33,323 nt of DNA from an uncultured Lentisphaeria bacterium (lineage in GTDB: Bacteria; Verrucomicrobiota; Lentisphaeria; Oligosphaerales; Oligosphaeraceae), in assembly GCA_945827525.1 (NCBI GenBank), contig CALZPA010000011.1, forward strand, positions 1 through 33,323, given 5' to 3'. A program made the position numbers and the translations under genes. Shown in pieces: positions 1-8,664 of this stretch (positions are counted from its first letter, which is position 1; every line of letters begins with the position of its first letter). A model generated the notes under the pieces. That model had not been told where the DNA came from. It saw only the letters and a program-made list of their open reading frames with translations, and searched no databases.

Positions 1-931
1 ATTACTTTAAGAAGGAACTTCGACAGGGGGGCTTAAACATGCCCCTCCTCCCTAATACCGCCTCAAAGCATTACTTTAAGAAGGAACTTCGACGACAATA
101 GATTGTTTACGCCAACTGGAAGAAAAAGCCGCCTCAAAGCATTACTTTAAGAAGGAACTTCGACTCCACTTCGGGTGGTTTGGCACTGGCATCTCGTCCG
201 CCTCAAAGCATTACTTTAAGAAGGAACTTCGACCCCTGTCGTCGTCGATGACCTCCGCGGAAAGAGCCGCCTCAAAGCATTACTTTAAGAAGGAACTTCG
301 ACGTAACAGTGTCCCCCCCTATATATATATTTAGACCGCCTCAAAGCATTACTTTAAGAAGGAACTTCGACTACGCAGGCGGGCTGAGGAACATCCTGGA
401 CGGCAACCGCCTCAAAGCATTACTTTAAGAAGGAACTTCGACTAAGCCCAAGTTTGGCGGCGCTCAACATCCACGACCGCCTCAAAGCATTACTTTAAGA
501 AGGAACTTCGACCAACGGCGTCCAGCGTGGGGCGGCAGGTACTACGCCGCCTCAAAGCATTACTTTAAGAAGGAACTTCGACGATATAGTCAAATGCGGG
601 AAAGGCTACATTTGTCCCGCCTCAAAGCATTACTTTAAGAAGGAACTTCGACGCCGGGCGTCAAGGCCGAACTTGTAGTAGTCAACCCGCCTCAAAGCAT
701 TACTTTAAGAAGGAACTTCGACTGCTTTCGGTCGCGTCACGCAAAGACACTAACACCGCCTCAAAGCATTACTTTAAGAAGGAACTTCGACCGCCTGTCT
801 CCAAAAAGGGATTTCACGCTTCAGGTCCGCCTCAAAGCATTACTTTAAGAAGGAACTTCGACGACCCAGTCAGCCGATAGGAGCTACAATGAGACCCGCC
901 TCAAAGCATTACTTTAAGAAGGAACTTCGAC
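1..931 (+). CRISPR. CRISPR array, type V-B: 14 repeats (first truncated at window edge, 1-24), 13 spacers of 33-35 nt; strand is provisional
   Basis: Identical 36-nt repeat CCGCCTCAAAGCATTACTTTAAGAAGGAACTTCGAC at 58, 129, 198, 267, 336, 407, 477, 547, 617, 687, 756, 827 and 896, plus 1-24. All spacers look unique. Strand chosen because the repeat 3' end (..CTTCGAC) resembles the ..GTGGCAC end of known Cas12b repeats. Confidence 0.98.
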
Positions 932-935
932 GGCG

Positions 936-964
936 CCCATTGGAACTCAAGGTTCTCGAATGGG
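936..964. other. Imperfect hairpin just after the last repeat
   Basis: CCCATT-g-GAAC-tcaag-GTTC-tcg-AATGGG: nested arms of 6 bp and 4 bp. Confidence 0.5.
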
Positions 965-994
965 TTACACGACCGTTTGCGAGCATCTCTCAAC

Positions 995-1060
995 AGACTA
1001 CTGATGACCCTTTGTTAGTTTCCTTGCTGGACATTTAGAAACGAAGGTCACCAGTAGTCT
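995..1060. repeat. Inverted repeat, 15-bp arms with one mismatch
   Basis: AGACTACTGATGACC (995-1009) and GGTCACCAGTAGTCT (1046-1060); inner GTTTC/GAAAC also pairs. Confidence 0.7.
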
Positions 1061-1273
1061 TTGAGCCTAACTGTCAAGGAGCGCGAGCATCTAAGCGTCG
1101 AGACTTGACGACCTCACTGCTCGTCAGGCCGTCTCCCCCTCGGCATGGTCTTGGCTGGTGCATAAGCCACGAGCTGCTGGGGATAACAGTCATGTTGTAG
1201 CTGAACGTGAGGTGGGAACATAGCAACTGAGGTATGTTGTGACATACCATCACATTTCCAATGCTCCAGTCGT

Positions 1274-1524
1274 GTCGAAAGAGCCTTCTTACAGCAATAC
1301 CTTGTTCCTCCAATGGCGGCGGAGGAATGTCCTGCCGGAGACGCGGTCCGGCGAAAAAACAAACAGTCAGTCGAGATGCCTTCTTACAGCAATACCTTGT
1401 TCCTCCAATGGCGGCGGAGGAATGTCCTGCCGGAGACGCGGTCCGGCGAAAAAACAAACAGTCAGTCGAGATGCCTTCTTACAGCAATACCTTGTTCCTC
1501 CAATGGCGGCGGAGGAATGTCCTG
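1274..1524 (+). ncRNA. Candidate tracrRNA region with three anti-repeat copies; transcript ends unknown
   Basis: GTCGAGATGCCTTCTTACAGCAATACCTTG (1370-1399; 95 bp later at 1465) matches the reverse complement of the CRISPR repeat at 23/30 positions without gaps. Copy 1 has GTCGA-AAGAG-CCTTCTTACAGCAATACCTTG from 1274. Hairpins follow within the unit: TTCCTCC/GGAGGAA (1305-1327) and GCCGGA/TCCGGC (1334-1352). Confidence 0.75.
1284..1524 (+). repeat. 95-bp tandem direct repeat, two full copies (1284-1378, 1379-1473) plus partial third (1474-1524)
   Basis: CCTTCTTACAGCAATACCTTGTTCCTCCAATGGCGGCGGAGGAATGTCCTG occurs identically at 1284, 1379 and 1474. The 44-nt linker CCGGAGACGCGGTCCGGCGAAAAAACAAACAGTCAGTCGAGATG is identical in the first two. 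Confidence 0.97.
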
Positions 1525-1585
1525 TCCAGAACTCAAGCCGAACGATAGGAACTATAGCACATGATGGTGTCTCGTCAAGCCGTCA

Positions 1586-1876
1586 TCAGACAAAAATCAC
1601 CTTGGGAATCGGAGCAATGGGTTTGCCGATGGTCTCGAAGGATTGGAACACTTCGGGATTGGGTCCCAGATCCACGAGCAGACATTGATCCTCATGGTGG
1701 TTGACGAGTTCAGCCAGCGCAGTCATGAGTCTATTTTTCATAAGCTCTGACAATTGGCAGTAAAAAACGGACTCCTGCAGTCTGTAGCCATAGCCCTCAA
1801 GGAGTCTGGCGATTCTTCTGAGCCGTTTGGGATCGGCAATATCATATGAGACGATGAACGAGCGTTGGGCTGCCAT
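1586..1876 (-). CDS. cas2: CRISPR-associated endonuclease Cas2
   Basis: 96 aa, N-term RSFIVSYDIADPKRLRRIARLLEGYGYRLQESVFYC is typical of Cas2; adjacent to cas1. Confidence 0.95.
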   Translation of the reverse strand: MAAQRSFIVSYDIADPKRLRRIARLLEGYGYRLQESVFYCQLSELMKNRLMTALAELVNHHEDQCLLVDLGPNPEVFQSFETIGKPIAPIPKVIFV

Positions 1877-1881
1877 GAGGA

Positions 1882-3600
1882 TTAACGTGTCACAATGGGA
1901 TGGTAGGTGTTCATGTCACCGCGGAAAATACGCCATAGCTGTCGCGTCTGGACCTCCAGCAGTCTTCTGTATGACATTCGGTACTTGAAGGTAGGATGGA
2001 TGAGTTCTTCGGCCATCCGCCTTGAGTAGGCCGTCCAGAACGCCTGATGGCCGCTTTTCTTGAGGGCGCATCCGGTCGAGGCGGAGATGAAGTCGGACAC
2101 ATCGACTGCGCCTCTGTTGACTAGCGAAAGGACCACGCTATCCACGATCAGCGGTCGGAATTCCTCCATGAGGTCGAGCGCGAGGGCGGGGCGTCCATAT
2201 CGGGGCGCGTGTAGGATGCCGCAGGCAGGATCCAGCCCCACCAGATGGCAGATGCCGGTGATTTCGGAGGCGAGGACACTGTATCCCAGGGAAAGCATGG
2301 CATTGACGGGGTCGCGTGGCGGGCGTCTGTTTCTGCCGGAGAAGAGGCTGGCGAAGTCTGGCTGCGCCAGCATATCGGCAAAATGCCCGAAATAGAGAGC
2401 GGCAGCCCGTCCCTCAACGCCCATGAGTTCGTTTCGGGTGGTGGCCTTGACGGCTTGTCTGGCCAGCTCGGCCAAATCGTCAAGGAGCTGTTTGTCTCGC
2501 TGCCTGGCGTTGCGCTGCAGCAGAATGCGCTGGTTCATGATTTTCGCCTTGATCATCTGTCCAGCTAGCTTGACGGCGTGCGGCTCGTTCTCCGCCAGGC
2601 GATATTGGCCATGGCGCGAGTCCAGCCCCGCAAGTCCGAGTGTGTCAAGACGTCCCATATAGGAGCCAGCTGGTGAGAAGAAGGCGACGGCTATCTGTTC
2701 CTTCAGGCACATCTGCAGGACCTGGGTGGAGAGTTGAGCCGTACCGTAGATGGCGATGGAGGAGAGGGAATGGATGGGAGCCGAGGCAAGCACCTGGTCA
2801 TTCTCCACGACGGCAATCGTGTCCCCACGCTTTGAAAGCCTGGCCTGGGGGCTGGTGACGACGAGCGCGACGCCATCCTCCCGTTCAGCCAGCGGCGGGG
2901 CATCGCCGCCGGTCGCCTTCTGCTGATGTTTCCAGACCAACGTCTCATTGGGCAGACAGACGGGATAGGCTGAGCAGCGCAGACAGCGCATATCCTGGGA
3001 ACGGGGCGGGGGCATGCCGCCGGCGGCGCAGGCGCGAAGCTCATCCAGCAGATGGCTCAGCTCCGTGTCATCATCGGGTATGGTTATGGGCAGCACCTGA
3101 CGGGTTCTGGCATAGTAGACCGCGCCAGCCGACACCTGGTAGCCTTGTCGCCGTGCAAGCGTGGCATAGGCGATGACCTGCCAGGTGTCCGTGTCCCAGG
3201 CCCGCGTCTGCCCCGTTTCGTCCGTCAGCGGTGCGCCATGCTTGTAGTCGTAGAGACACCAAGTGCCGTCCTCCTGCCGTCGCAGCAAATCGGCCACGCC
3301 GGAGAGTCCCAGCTCGTCATCCGGGAGTGCCAGCGAGCGCAGCGTCTCCCGTGTGCCATTGAGGAGTTCATCGGGATAGGCGGTGACCGAAGGCACATCC
3401 ACCCGCCGATGCGTCGCGTCACCGGCGACGACATCGGCGTTGGTGACAAAGACCCCCTCCACGAACTGGATATACATCAGACGCGGGCAGTAGACATAGT
3501 TGTGCACGACCCTGACGGGTATCATCTGCCTTTCGTCCTCCGAGGGTGCAGCTACCTTAGCGGACATGCTGTTCGCCATGATGGTTGCCGGCTGAACCAT
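1882..3600 (-). CDS. cas4-cas1: Cas4-Cas1 fusion protein
   Basis: N-terminal Cas4/RecB-like part with YCPRLMYIQFVEG and Cys cluster CLRCSAYPVC, then a Cas1 domain (DSRHGQYRLAENEPHAVKLAGQMIKAKIMNQRILLQRN...). ATG at 3600 overlaps the cas12b stop; the ORF track starts at a TTG at 3603. Confidence 0.95.
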   Translation of the reverse strand: MVQPATIMANSMSAKVAAPSEDERQMIPVRVVHNYVYCPRLMYIQFVEGVFVTNADVVAGDATHRRVDVPSVTAYPDELLNGTRETLRSLALPDDELGLSGVADLLRRQEDGTWCLYDYKHGAPLTDETGQTRAWDTDTWQVIAYATLARRQGYQVSAGAVYYARTRQVLPITIPDDDTELSHLLDELRACAAGGMPPPRSQDMRCLRCSAYPVCLPNETLVWKHQQKATGGDAPPLAEREDGVALVVTSPQARLSKRGDTIAVVENDQVLASAPIHSLSSIAIYGTAQLSTQVLQMCLKEQIAVAFFSPAGSYMGRLDTLGLAGLDSRHGQYRLAENEPHAVKLAGQMIKAKIMNQRILLQRNARQRDKQLLDDLAELARQAVKATTRNELMGVEGRAAALYFGHFADMLAQPDFASLFSGRNRRPPRDPVNAMLSLGYSVLASEITGICHLVGLDPACGILHAPRYGRPALALDLMEEFRPLIVDSVVLSLVNRGAVDVSDFISASTGCALKKSGHQAFWTAYSRRMAEELIHPTFKYRMSYRRLLEVQTRQLWRIFRGDMNTYHPIVTR

Positions 3601-6600
3601 CAATAGCCGAGCTGGTCAGTTGGGCTATCGGACCAGAGCGTCTTGGTGACGGATATTCTTCCCCGCAACTTCTGCCATTCTTGAGGTTGCCACTGGCAGG
3701 ACTGCGATGCCTCATCGGTCAGGAAGCAGCGCACAGCCGTTTCCCAGTCGTCCTCACGCCAGTGGGTCGCCTCCGGCAGTTCGGGCATGAGTTTCCGGAG
3801 CCGTTGCCAGTTGAGCTGACGGCAACGCTTCCATTGCAGGAGACTGTCGTGCCAGAGTCCACCGCCAAACAGCAGATTGGGATATTTTCGACGTGTAGCC
3901 TCATCCTTGAAGATGGGCTTCTGCTGTTCCTGATAGAAATGGAGCTCCTCTGTCCGGCAGCCAAGGACAAAGACATTGCCTCCGTCCCTCGCATAGGAGC
4001 CACTGGGCACATAGTCCACTTCGAGCGGCTCCTGGTAGACCATCTTGGCGAGCTTGGAGGTCTTCTTGACTTGCCAGCAGCCGGGCACCTTTCCCTTGCG
4101 CTCCATCGACAGGCGGTTATTGATGTCCAGCCTGGAGCCCTCGACAACCGCGCGGAGCCCCAGGTTGAAGGAGGCGTTGACATCCGCCTGCACCAGACGG
4201 TCACTCTGACAGAAGCAGACAAAGACAGGGCCGCCATTGCGGGGAATAACCACGGAGGAGGCTGGCTGCTTCCATTCCAGCAGTTTGGCGATGCGCGCAT
4301 TCTGGCTGGCCACTCGTGCAAGAGCCGAGGCGCCTGTATCCGAAGCCTGTTGGGGCTTCTCCTCAGGCACATCAAACAGTTGCAGCTGCTGGCCATGGGG
4401 AGGCTCCTGGGGCTGGGCGTTCTTACCGGCCATGTGCCTCTTCGCGAGCGTCTGGCCAGCGGCCTGACGGAAGCCGTAGGAGGCCATCAGGCGCTGATAG
4501 GTCAGCTCCTCGGCGCGGAAGCCAGGAATGCCCTCTGCGGAGAACTTGGACGAGTAGGCCGCATTGACCTCCACCAGGGGAATGCCATAGATTTCGCAGA
4601 GTAGCTTGAGCTTATCCCGAATGGCCCGATGCGCCCACTTCATGAGACGCGAATTCTCTCGTCTGGAGCGATCCTGGCTGAAGCGGTAGCGGCTGAGGTT
4701 CTCGATGACGACAAAGGCGGCTGGCTGCAATCCGGGGATCTGTGCATATTCGCCATGAATGTCGTTTTCCGCTCGCCTCTGCCTGTCCTCTTGCCGATGG
4801 GGTCGGTGGCGCAGTCCCAGTGCCTGGGTGAGTATCAAGTTTGCCGTCTGGTTCACCCGCTGTTCCTTGAGCTCATCCAGGCGCATAAGGACATCGGGAC
4901 ACGGATCGGGAATGGGAGTCTCCCGCATCTGCTGCACGCTCATGGGCCGTTCGCCTGGAACCGTCATCAGGATGCGGTTGAGCGACTGGCAGCATTGGCG
5001 GAATGTCTCGAGCTGCTCCAGGCGCAGGAAGCTCAGCCCGCGCTGTCCGCGTATCAGGGTCGGAGTGGGGTCGCTTCCGCGAGCAGTCTGCCGCAACTGA
5101 AGGCAGCGTCCATCACCGACACGGCACCATTGCCAGCCGCGCCCACGCAAGGGCAGTATACGGTTGGCGATGGTCAGCAGGTCATCCGGCAGCTCCCGAC
5201 GCAGGGTCTCGACCTGGGCACGGATGCCCTCGTTGGTCTTGTCAGTCAGCCAGGAGCAGGCCGCTATTTCCTCCTCGACGCCCTTGAGGTTACCCAGAGT
5301 GCGCCCCATCAGGAAGCGCATCAGTTGCCTTAGCCTGGACAGCGCCCGTCTAAAGCCGACGAGCAGCAGATCGTTCTGCTCGGGGAAGTAGTTTCTGTCA
5401 AGACACTCCATATCCTGTGTCTCGCCCCAGATGCGCCTGAATTCGGCCTCGTCCTGAGCCAGCAGCTTCCGCATGAGTGCCTGACCAGCCAAAGTCTCCT
5501 CCTTGCTGGCATGCCGTCCGCGCTCGCCATCGCGCTCCTGGACAAACCGGTCTTTCTCCAGCACTTTGGCGTCCTCACCCGGCAGCCGCAGCAACTGCGA
5601 ATGGCGTCTCACAGCATACCACTCCCGATTCTCGGCATGGCCAATGGACAGGGCACCTGGTCGGGGCGTCGTGGTGACCGTGATGCGTGACAGAGCGCCG
5701 GCCGTGCGCTGTCCCAGATCCACCGACACGAGGTCAAAGGGCTTTCCCGACTTATACCATGATGCGCCATCCGCCGTCGCGCCGTAGGAGGGCCACAGCA
5801 TACAGACATTGGCGTCATTGGCATAGTAGAGCTGGCCTTTGGCCAGGAAGGGCGACTGGGTGGAGGAGGACAGCTTGGCCACATTCAGGGAGGGGAGGAA
5901 ATTCAGCAGGAAGCGTCGGTGCCCTGAACGGTCCACATCGGGCATGAGCTGCACATCGACCTCCTTGAAGTCCACGGCATCAGCAGCTGTCTCTGCGCAC
6001 TCCAGCAGCGGTCTTGCGGCTGGCGGCAGATAGACGCTTTCGCCGTCGGCGAGGAGGCCGTCTCGGCGCAGACGCGGGGCACTGTATTCCAGCAGGCACT
6101 CCTGGAAGACACATGATCCATCTGAGTTGCGGTAGGTCAAAGGAACGACATAGTGGCCTGGCTTGGTATGTCCCGTCTTCTTGCGAATGAACGGCTTCAG
6201 ATCCAACTGACGCCGGGAGTGCTCCGCGTCTGCTGGCGTGAAGCGTATCGGTTCCATCAAATGCTTGATTTCATCCAGCACCTCGGCGTAGACGACCGCA
6301 TCGCGCAGAATATTGCCTGAGCGGAATTTTCCAGCAGGGGCACTGTCCGCCCGCCAGATGCACCAGTTCTGCGGAGCGCTGAGAGCCCCAAAGAGCATGG
6401 CGCTGCCAAAGACATCCGAACGCTTGGTCTGCACCGCCTTCAGGTGTTCCAGCAAAGCCTGCTGCATCTGGTCGTCGGATTGCCCCTGGCGCTTGGCGAG
6501 CAGAGCGTTCCAGCCCTTGAAGATTTCGTCGGCGGTTCGGATGGTTCGCCATGTCAGACCATAGTCGGCGGACTGTCCGTCCGTGAAGGGATTGGTGACG

Positions 6601-7922
6601 GCCAGTTCGGTCTTGAGCAGTTCGTTGAGTCGTTCCCAGCGGGGATCACCTGCAAGGATGGGAAGGGCTCCCGTCTCCTCGTCAGCCTCTTCCGCGTCAT
6701 CTCCCTCATCCAGGCGTGGCGGCTTCTTGAGTTCGGAGACGCCCTCCATCCAGTCTTTAGCGGCCTGGTATCGCTTCAGCTCCTCATCTCGCTCAGCCGT
6801 CTTCTGACGGAACTGGTTGATGGTCTTAAGTGCTTCGGAAAACGCTTCTTTGTCAAATTTGTTTTCTGTTTCCTGACAAACCAGGGCGGTGAAATAGGGA
6901 AACACAAAACCTCTTGTCCCACGTGCCTCGCGCACGGGGTCACCTCCGATGCCAGCATCGATGACCTGTGCCTTCTTGTCCTCCTTCTCTGGCTTGAGCA
7001 ACAGCTTGGCCAGAGAGACTGTGGCGTCGTTGGGAAAGAACTTGAGCATCCAGGCCATATTTCTTATAGGCAGACTGGTTCTGTTGTTTCTCGGGAAACG
7101 CACCTGCTCCAGTTCATCGACCTTATCAAGCATCCTGGCAAGTTCCGTTTGCACACTTTCCTGCGCCAGCCAATCGAGCGCAGCAGGTGGACTGATACGC
7201 TTGTCTCGATCCAGATAGAAGCGTATGGCGTCCTTGAGCTCCTTCTTCGCATCATCACCCTCAAAGAATTTGCCGGTCTGAGTCTTGACGCCGAACCACT
7301 CCAGCGAGATATCAGGCTGGAGAGCCCGAATGGCGGCCAGGGCATCGGATTCACGTAAGGCGGCAAAAAGACGTTGCCTGCCAGCCGCTCCCTCATTGGC
7401 CTTCTCGTCGCATTCCCAGTTCCCATCATAATCGGGACGGCACAGACGAGCGATATAGGTGGCGCCCGATTGCTTGACATCCCCATTGACAATGCACTTG
7501 TCCGCCACCTGGCAAATGGCCTTCTCCAGCAGCTCCGAACTGGAGGGATTCCCCGCCAAAATCAGGTTGCAGGCGGCCTCCAGACCATGCGTCTCGTCCA
7601 ACAGCCTCTCCCGATGCTGCGGAAAGACTCGTGCCAGCGAGTGCTTCAGGCCAGGACGCTTTCCTCCTGACGCCTGGAAATCGTTCCAGACATCCCGCAT
7701 CCGCAGCTTCAGCTTGCCAATGAAGCTGTTCTCATCATGGGACATGGCGGCCAAAGCCACCAGGTAATAGTTCACCGCATCCTGATAGAGAACCACATGA
7801 CGCCACAGAACCTCCTCCATCTCCTCCTTGGACAAGACTCTGTTGACCTCTCCTCTGACAGTAAGCCCCGTAATGCGACCCTGATAAATGCGAATGAATT
7901 CACTACCCATACTCTGTGCCAT
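3600..7922 (-). CDS. cas12b: Type V-B effector Cas12b (C2c1), 1440 aa
   Basis: RuvC-I VSVDLGQRTAG, RuvC-II FVVIENLSRYRFSQDRSRRENSRLMKWAHR, VNAAYSSKFSAEGIPGFR, RuvC-III VQADVNASFNLGLR; same order and similar to AacCas12b motifs. Gene order cas12b, cas4-cas1, cas2, array. Confidence 0.95.
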   Translation of the reverse strand: MAQSMGSEFIRIYQGRITGLTVRGEVNRVLSKEEMEEVLWRHVVLYQDAVNYYLVALAAMSHDENSFIGKLKLRMRDVWNDFQASGGKRPGLKHSLARVFPQHRERLLDETHGLEAACNLILAGNPSSSELLEKAICQVADKCIVNGDVKQSGATYIARLCRPDYDGNWECDEKANEGAAGRQRLFAALRESDALAAIRALQPDISLEWFGVKTQTGKFFEGDDAKKELKDAIRFYLDRDKRISPPAALDWLAQESVQTELARMLDKVDELEQVRFPRNNRTSLPIRNMAWMLKFFPNDATVSLAKLLLKPEKEDKKAQVIDAGIGGDPVREARGTRGFVFPYFTALVCQETENKFDKEAFSEALKTINQFRQKTAERDEELKRYQAAKDWMEGVSELKKPPRLDEGDDAEEADEETGALPILAGDPRWERLNELLKTELAVTNPFTDGQSADYGLTWRTIRTADEIFKGWNALLAKRQGQSDDQMQQALLEHLKAVQTKRSDVFGSAMLFGALSAPQNWCIWRADSAPAGKFRSGNILRDAVVYAEVLDEIKHLMEPIRFTPADAEHSRRQLDLKPFIRKKTGHTKPGHYVVPLTYRNSDGSCVFQECLLEYSAPRLRRDGLLADGESVYLPPAARPLLECAETAADAVDFKEVDVQLMPDVDRSGHRRFLLNFLPSLNVAKLSSSTQSPFLAKGQLYYANDANVCMLWPSYGATADGASWYKSGKPFDLVSVDLGQRTAGALSRITVTTTPRPGALSIGHAENREWYAVRRHSQLLRLPGEDAKVLEKDRFVQERDGERGRHASKEETLAGQALMRKLLAQDEAEFRRIWGETQDMECLDRNYFPEQNDLLLVGFRRALSRLRQLMRFLMGRTLGNLKGVEEEIAACSWLTDKTNEGIRAQVETLRRELPDDLLTIANRILPLRGRGWQWCRVGDGRCLQLRQTARGSDPTPTLIRGQRGLSFLRLEQLETFRQCCQSLNRILMTVPGERPMSVQQMRETPIPDPCPDVLMRLDELKEQRVNQTANLILTQALGLRHRPHRQEDRQRRAENDIHGEYAQIPGLQPAAFVVIENLSRYRFSQDRSRRENSRLMKWAHRAIRDKLKLLCEIYGIPLVEVNAAYSSKFSAEGIPGFRAEELTYQRLMASYGFRQAAGQTLAKRHMAGKNAQPQEPPHGQQLQLFDVPEEKPQQASDTGASALARVASQNARIAKLLEWKQPASSVVIPRNGGPVFVCFCQSDRLVQADVNASFNLGLRAVVEGSRLDINNRLSMERKGKVPGCWQVKKTSKLAKMVYQEPLEVDYVPSGSYARDGGNVFVLGCRTEELHFYQEQQKPIFKDEATRRKYPNLLFGGGLWHDSLLQWKRCRQLNWQRLRKLMPELPEATHWREDDWETAVRCFLTDEASQSCQWQPQEWQKLRGRISVTKTLWSDSPTDQLGY

Positions 7923-7947
7923 TGTGTACGAAGGTTCATTAGGTGAT

Positions 7948-7975
7948 GTTATCCTATATGCCTCTCATGACTCAA
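7948..7975 (-). promoter_or_regulatory. Possible sigma70-like promoter for the cas operon
   Basis: Minus strand TTGAGT-16 nt-GATAAC in an AT-rich region just upstream of the cas12b ATG. Confidence 0.25.
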
Positions 7976-8239
7976 ATTTTTCCCTATACATTCTGCCATT
8001 ACTATACTGGCCTTAAGCTTGCTTTTCCACCTCAATCTAGAATAATAAGTGAGCTTTTTATGACATATGCAAAAGTGTCAATCTTTGTCGTTTATTGTCC
8101 AATAAAAGAACAAGTTATTTCCCTGAATGGAGAAGTCATGCTGTATCTGCATAAGAGAGTGATTTAGGAGGATAGCACAAACTGTCACATTGTGGGAACT
8201 GAGCGCTCAAGCCAATCACTGACTGAATACGGCAAAGAC

Positions 8240-8558
8240 GCCTCGCTTCGCTCGGAGGGCTTTTTTTCTCGCCTCGCTTCGCTCGGAGGGCTTTTCTCTC
8301 GTCACTCTCGTCACTCTCGTCACTCTCGTCACTCTCGTCGCTTTTTGCCGCCTCGCTCCTCGCTTCGCTCGGCGGGCTTTTCTCTCGTCACTCTCGTCGC
8401 TTTTTGCCGCCTCGCTTCGCTCGGCAGGCTTTTTTTGCTCTCGTCACTCTCGTCACTCTCGTCACTTTTTCTCGCCTCGCTTCGCTCGGCGTTTTTTTCT
8501 CTCGTCACTCTCGTCACTCTCGTCGCTTTTTGCCGCCTCGCTTCGCTCGGCGGGCGCT
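8240..8558. repeat. Nested low-complexity repeats: palindromic CGCCTCGCTTCGCTCGGCG units separated by tandem 9-mers (CTCTCGTCA)n
   Basis: CCTCGCTTCGCTCGG recurs six times, mostly followed by T-runs and CTCTCGTCA/CTCTCGTCG tandems of 2-5 copies. Confidence 0.95.
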
Positions 8559-8563
8559 ATTCG

Positions 8564-8610
8564 CCCGACGGCGGGGGCGCCGTCGGGACAGGCCTCGCTT
8601 TGCTCGGCGG
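8564..8610. repeat. Dispersed hairpin repeat, copy 1
   Basis: CCCGACGGCGGGGGCGCCGTCGGGACAGGCCTCGCTTTGCTCGGCGG; 9-bp stem CCCGACGGC/GCCGTCGGG. Confidence 0.9.
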
Positions 8611-8664
8611 GGTATGATCCACAAAAGGCACAAAATACGCCAAAGACGCATCGCTGCGAACGAC

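Follow-up and report, generated by a model that had tools for sequence, protein, structure and literature searches.

A stretch of 33,323 bases, referred to below as the window and comprising the whole of one contig, carries beside its CRISPR array a tandem segment which, with a probability of roughly 0.8 on the evidence of its sequence, is a triplicated type V-B (Cas12b) tracrRNA gene giving a single minus-strand transcript with three modules. An earlier note on this DNA had proposed that a tracrRNA anti-repeat is multiplied beside a Cas12b locus, and this proposal is borne out by the model matches, the anti-repeats and the hairpins of all three units; the plus-strand polarity which it gave to the tracrRNA is contradicted by the pairing of the minus strand, by the crRNA orientation of related loci and by the model matches alike. 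Ahead of the array on the crRNA strand, each unit combines a long anti-repeat, a pseudoknot-type hairpin and a match to a model of the family, and the window departs from the usual single tracrRNA gene per locus in having three such units.

Judged by its genes, the locus is a true type V-B system, with a Cas12b effector, an adjacent cas4-cas1 fusion, cas2 and a CRISPR array; on the minus strand these are ordered as the array at the contig start, the tandem segment, cas2, the cas4-cas1 fusion and cas12b (Table 1). The effector is also called as Cas12b by PADLOC (3.5e-130), and its residues D735, E1074 and D1247, which from motif context we take to be the RuvC catalytic triad, are invariant in the alignment. 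The crRNA strand was assigned by orienting related loci with Cas12b on the plus strand and comparing the ends of their repeats, which on the Cas12b strand read GAGGCGG, TGGCGG, GGACAC or GGCAC (GTGGCAC in the Alicyclobacillus locus L084, which was among those compared). The repeat in the window reads GTCGAAG...TTGAGGCGG on the minus strand, the strand of cas12b, cas4-cas1 and cas2, and because the matching repeat end GAGGCGG thus lies on the minus strand, the crRNA shares that strand with the cas genes; by homology of repeat ends and by gene order, the crRNA strand is the minus strand. The leader-proximal end of the array is at position 931, and its 13 spacers have no match in annotated phage genomes.

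Table 1. Features of the locus, in order of position in the window.
Feature	Position	Strand	Details
CRISPR array	1..931	minus	13 full 36-nt repeats (58-931) and one truncated by the contig end; crRNA orientation minus (GTCGAAGTTCCTTCTTAAAGTAATGCTTTGAGGCGG)
Presumed leader	932..1273	minus	342 nt, from last tracrRNA unit to first repeat; assigned from position
Long anti-repeat, unit 1 (array-proximal)	1274..1304	minus	score 47; duplex -39.1 kcal/mol
Pseudoknot hairpin, unit 1	1305..1327	minus	TTCCTCC-GCCGCCATT-GGAGGAA, loop CCGCC; covariance model and hairpin search
Stem-loop 1, unit 1	1334..1352	minus	GCCGGACCGCGTCTCCGGC, 6 bp; covariance model and folding
43-nt linker J, units 2/1	1335..1377	minus	anti-repeat tail, T-run, most of stem-loop 1
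Long anti-repeat, unit 2	1370..1399	minus	anti-repeat search and duplex energy
Pseudoknot hairpin, unit 2	1400..1422	minus	covariance model and hairpin search
Stem-loop 1, unit 2	1429..1447	minus	covariance model and folding
43-nt linker J, units 3/2	1430..1472	minus	identical to units 2/1 linker
Long anti-repeat, unit 3 (promoter-proximal)	1465..1494	minus	anti-repeat search and duplex energy
Pseudoknot hairpin, unit 3	1495..1517	minus	covariance model and hairpin search
Sigma-70-like promoter (predicted)	1551..1578	minus	TTGACG-16-TATAGT, extended TG; only one in 900-1720, both strands
cas2	1586..1876	minus	profile matches
cas4-cas1 fusion (Cas4g/Cas1g type)	1882..3603	minus	NF049935, 572 bits, cut-off 560
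cas12b, 1440 aa	3600..7922	minus	NF033949, 567 bits, cut-off 150

Tandem Repeats Finder reports one array at 1283-1524, with a period of 95 and 2.55 copies that match at 100% without indels. Copies one and two agree over the full 95 nt, the exact repeat measures 147 bp, and the core common to the three units occupies 1283-1334, 1378-1429 and 1473-1524; of the three identical 51-nt segments at 95-bp spacing described earlier, the identity and the spacing stand, and the length is corrected to 52 nt. Read from 5' to 3' on the minus strand, each unit consists of a stem-loop, the hairpin TTCCTCC-GCCGCCATT-GGAGGAA and the anti-repeat. In all three units the hairpin loop CCGCC, the short anti-repeat, is complementary to the last five bases of the repeat, GGCGG, with which it is predicted to be able to form a short pseudoknot helix. 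The anti-repeat tail of unit 1, GGCTCTTTCGAC, is unlike the tails of units 2 and 3. The two hairpins that had been placed inside each full unit do exist, but they belong to a scaffold 5' of the anti-repeat and not to a tail 3' of it.

The pairing between the units and the repeat core was re-evaluated on both strands. The 17 Watson-Crick pairs in 21 positions that had been counted are confirmed, and the pairing sequences GTCGA and TCGAC are present; three of the four mismatches are G-U pairs on the minus strand and A-C mismatches on the plus strand. The 21-nt duplex accordingly has 17 Watson-Crick and 3 G-U pairs on the minus strand (20 of 21 positions paired) as against 17 and none on the plus strand, with energies of about -38.5 to -39.1 and -27.5 to -27.9 kcal/mol respectively, and co-folding of the units with the repeat again gave stronger pairing on the minus strand than on the plus. 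The duplex has z = -5.6 to -6.1, no shuffle in 1000 being as good, and the long anti-repeats score 50, 50 and 47 (the last being unit 1) compared to a top shuffled score of 40. Transcription of the units is predicted to run along the minus strand, as it does in the relatives, and the scaffold then precedes the anti-repeat.

The tracrRNAs of aligned relatives have a common anatomy, in which stem-loop 1 and a short linker precede a hairpin with the core TCCGCCATTGG, itself followed by the anti-repeat. The layout described for Cas12b comprises a long repeat/anti-repeat duplex and a short one of 5-7 bp in a pseudoknot (PMC11246509), and in the AaCas12b guide stem-loops 1 and 2 are required for activity while the repeat/anti-repeat stem tolerates truncation (PMC6255809). 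Across 15 relatives, with the window excluded, the tracrRNA hairpin pairs in 100% of cells and shows changes on both sides at five of its six pairs, and none of 500 shuffles attained the values of the whole structure for pairing percentage and covariation score. A covariance model made from these 15 sequences, and so with the window left out, was used to search the whole window on both strands and gave exactly three matches, all of them on the minus strand, at 1274-1362, 1391-1442 and 1486-1537 (25.4, 24.2 and 22.1 bits; E = 2.8e-5, 6.4e-5 and 2.6e-4). Counting against the assignment, these 22-25 bits fall well short of the 48-93 bits that most relatives reach with the model. Rfam gave no significant match in 900-1700; the sole line returned, mir-21, was rejected, as its E value is 0.4 and its score lies far below the gathering score.

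The survey of anti-repeat number took in 46 Cas12b loci whose array could be used, with each species represented by one genome and most genomes assembled from metagenomes. It counted the anti-repeats that lay on the crRNA strand no more than 700 nt from the first repeat and exceeded a shuffled threshold (37 for the window). One anti-repeat was found in 40 loci, a weak second one in three (L038, L045 and L088, with no second pseudoknot-type hairpin beside it), none in two, and three in the window, which is the only one of the 46 to have three of near-equal strength. The statement that V-B loci have a single tracrRNA thus holds as a rule, with exactly one detectable anti-repeat in 40 of 46 loci and a single model match by the array in almost every relative. 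A search that is independent of the covariance model looked for hairpins that carry the short anti-repeat in their loop and have the long anti-repeat after them. It found three in the window, two in locus L030 and, in nearly all other GGCGG-type loci, one where it was expected; it found none in L061, for which the survey had nevertheless detected an anti-repeat, and in some loci it returned extra weak candidates far upstream. In L030 (genome G238) the main covariance-model match of 52 bits is adjoined by a second of 26.7 bits, a diverged tracrRNA-like element situated after the main tracrRNA and before the array (L030:10946-10995, minus strand; G238 contig C64). It comprises a separate stem-loop, GGCCACGGCC, a 7-bp hairpin that differs in sequence, and a 9-nt segment, CAAAGTCGC, with perfect pairing to the repeat; a promoter-like site belonging to this element was not found.

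The single-copy Cas12b/C2c1 tracrRNAs of Alicyclobacillus and Bacillus resemble the window in the order of cas genes, tracrRNA and array on one strand, in the position of the scaffold hairpins 5' of the long anti-repeat and the pseudoknot of the short anti-repeat with the 3' end of the repeat (PMC11246509), and in the combination of a Cas12b effector with a Cas4-Cas1 fusion. The window differs from them in its three tandem modules, in the one promoter-like site for all of these and in a longer gap to the array. Closer likenesses are found in the V-B loci of metagenome-assembled genomes from Lentisphaerota and other Verrucomicrobiota-related lineages (L033-L062), which share the repeat end GAGGCGG, the hairpin core CTCCGCCATTGG, the promoter-like site and the placement of the tracrRNA between cas2 and the array; these have one tracrRNA each, the exception being L030 with its second diverged element. 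The gap between tracrRNA and array is 342 nt in the window compared to 157-262 nt in relatives, weak outlying matches aside; in most loci of the survey the anti-repeat is found 157-275 nt upstream of the first repeat. No report of multiplied tracrRNA genes was found in the open-access literature searched, and a prior description may exist elsewhere.

The promoter-like site is located between cas2 and unit 3, a position that corresponds to that of the best sites in many relatives, and is separated from the hairpin by 33 nt, as against 21-29 nt in many of these. No comparable site was found for units 2 and 1, and no terminator-like site in 900-1720, including after each unit; because the region has a single promoter-like site, a multi-unit transcript is the simplest reading. 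When the segment is folded as one transcript, all three hairpins are predicted to form and the CCGCC loops to stay open; the weakness of stem-loop 1 in unit 3 counts against the reading, as does the lack of a terminator-like site. The same genome has a gene for RNase III, an enzyme expected to cut such duplexes in type V systems that use a tracrRNA (PMC12669027). From the sequence we infer transcription, co-transcription, processing, loading and an effect on dosage in the following form. The promoter just after cas2 would drive one transcript with three tracrRNA modules, in each of which stem-loop 1 would be followed by the CCGCC-loop hairpin, forming the pseudoknot with GGCGG, and by the long anti-repeat for the rest of the repeat; each module would take one pre-crRNA repeat, host RNase III would cut the long duplexes and so separate modules and crRNAs, and each dual RNA would load one Cas12b, the likely effect being more tracrRNA per transcript.

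Whether the modules are kept for this effect is a further matter. It is proposed tentatively, at somewhat less than even odds, that the one primary transcript with its three working modules, separated by RNase III, is retained for a raised supply of tracrRNA relative to crRNA or Cas12b, with L030 taken to show that such multiplication has originated repeatedly in the group. If the dosage of the tracrRNA gene does change in nature, it would follow that type V immunity can be limited by the supply of tracrRNA and that selection can act on this supply. If one transcript does yield three modules, it would be a natural design for multi-copy guide scaffolds, and it would allow a test in E. coli of whether Cas12b interference scales with tracrRNA copy number. 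The forms of tracrRNA in type II-A systems (S. agalactiae, PMC4448216; the long form, PMC11417352) are a parallel in that a locus has more than one tracrRNA species, but those species come from a single gene with two starts, while in the window the gene itself is repeated.

The segment may instead be a neutral and recent tandem duplication, in which one unit, probably the promoter- or the array-proximal one, works, the surplus copies being carried along until they are lost; this is a serious possibility, though one held below an even chance. The repeats are 100% identical, and growth of the array by unequal recombination between identical cores fits the data, since both cores and linkers are identical and a recent expansion explains that identity. 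Identity alone, however, cannot separate neutrality from selection, and all three units retain the hairpin and both the short and the long anti-repeat. In the Cas12b tree, three Lentisphaerota sequences cluster with the window and a fourth lies close by (L034 and L033; then L035 and L052; then G238). The duplication is confined to the genome of the window, as neutrality would have it, and because loci with one tracrRNA fall between the window and G238, the multiplications in the window and in L030 probably arose separately, loss being the alternative; the diverged but still structured second element of L030 suggests, against neutrality, that extra copies can persist. By eye, the outer flanks of the array look ancestral: one has the promoter, and the other has a tail resembling those of relatives. 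The derivation of the linker from an old duplication of the whole tracrRNA was considered and set aside, as the similarity between linker ends and outer flanks is weak (p about 0.02-0.1), is partly forced by pairing with the same repeat and is suggestive at most.

An artefact of assembly in the copy number, with only two units, or else more than three, in the actual locus, is unlikely but bears on the exact count. The genome, of 3.7 Mb, is assembled in 355 contigs, and the 147-bp exact repeat is longer than the usual k-mer sizes for short reads, so that a short-read assembler may miscount it and the count of three is less sure than a count of at least two. The core-linker and linker-core junctions are both present and the outer flanks are unlike, which requires a minimum of two cores; the tail of the array-proximal anti-repeat also differs from the other two, which again speaks against an artefact.

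It is improbable that the additional modules serve regulation, either by soaking up crRNA like a sponge or by acting as a long damping tracrRNA like that of Streptococcus Cas9: repression based on a long tracrRNA is described for type II-A (PMC11417352), and lends this idea an analogy, but the anti-repeats are not followed on their 3' side by any repeat-like sequence such as a natural single guide would need, and a repeat search of 1-8000 found no notable similarity between the units and the cas12b upstream region. Plus-strand tracrRNAs with hairpins 3' of the anti-repeat, in a layout like that of type II, are scarcely credible, as their pairing with the plus-strand repeat, which is above chance (1-4 of 1000 shuffles) because the complement of any true anti-repeat must pair in this way, is the weaker of the two, no promoter-like site and no covariance-model match lie on the plus strand, and the crRNA orientation in relatives contradicts them. 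The correction of the strand has practical weight: a guide RNA designed on the plus strand would be wrong in both sequence and layout.

Some further observations concern the surroundings of the units and the distribution of the effector. Viral contigs contained no copy of the tracrRNA unit core and, by protein search, no close relative of Cas12b; alignment found one distant relative among them. The stretch 932-1273 contains two inverted repeats, GGTATGT/ACATACC near 1229-1246 and 995-1009 with 1046-1060. Just upstream of cas12b, at 8192-8620, runs of the 9-bp unit CTCTCGTCA occur within a 61- to 126-bp periodic region.
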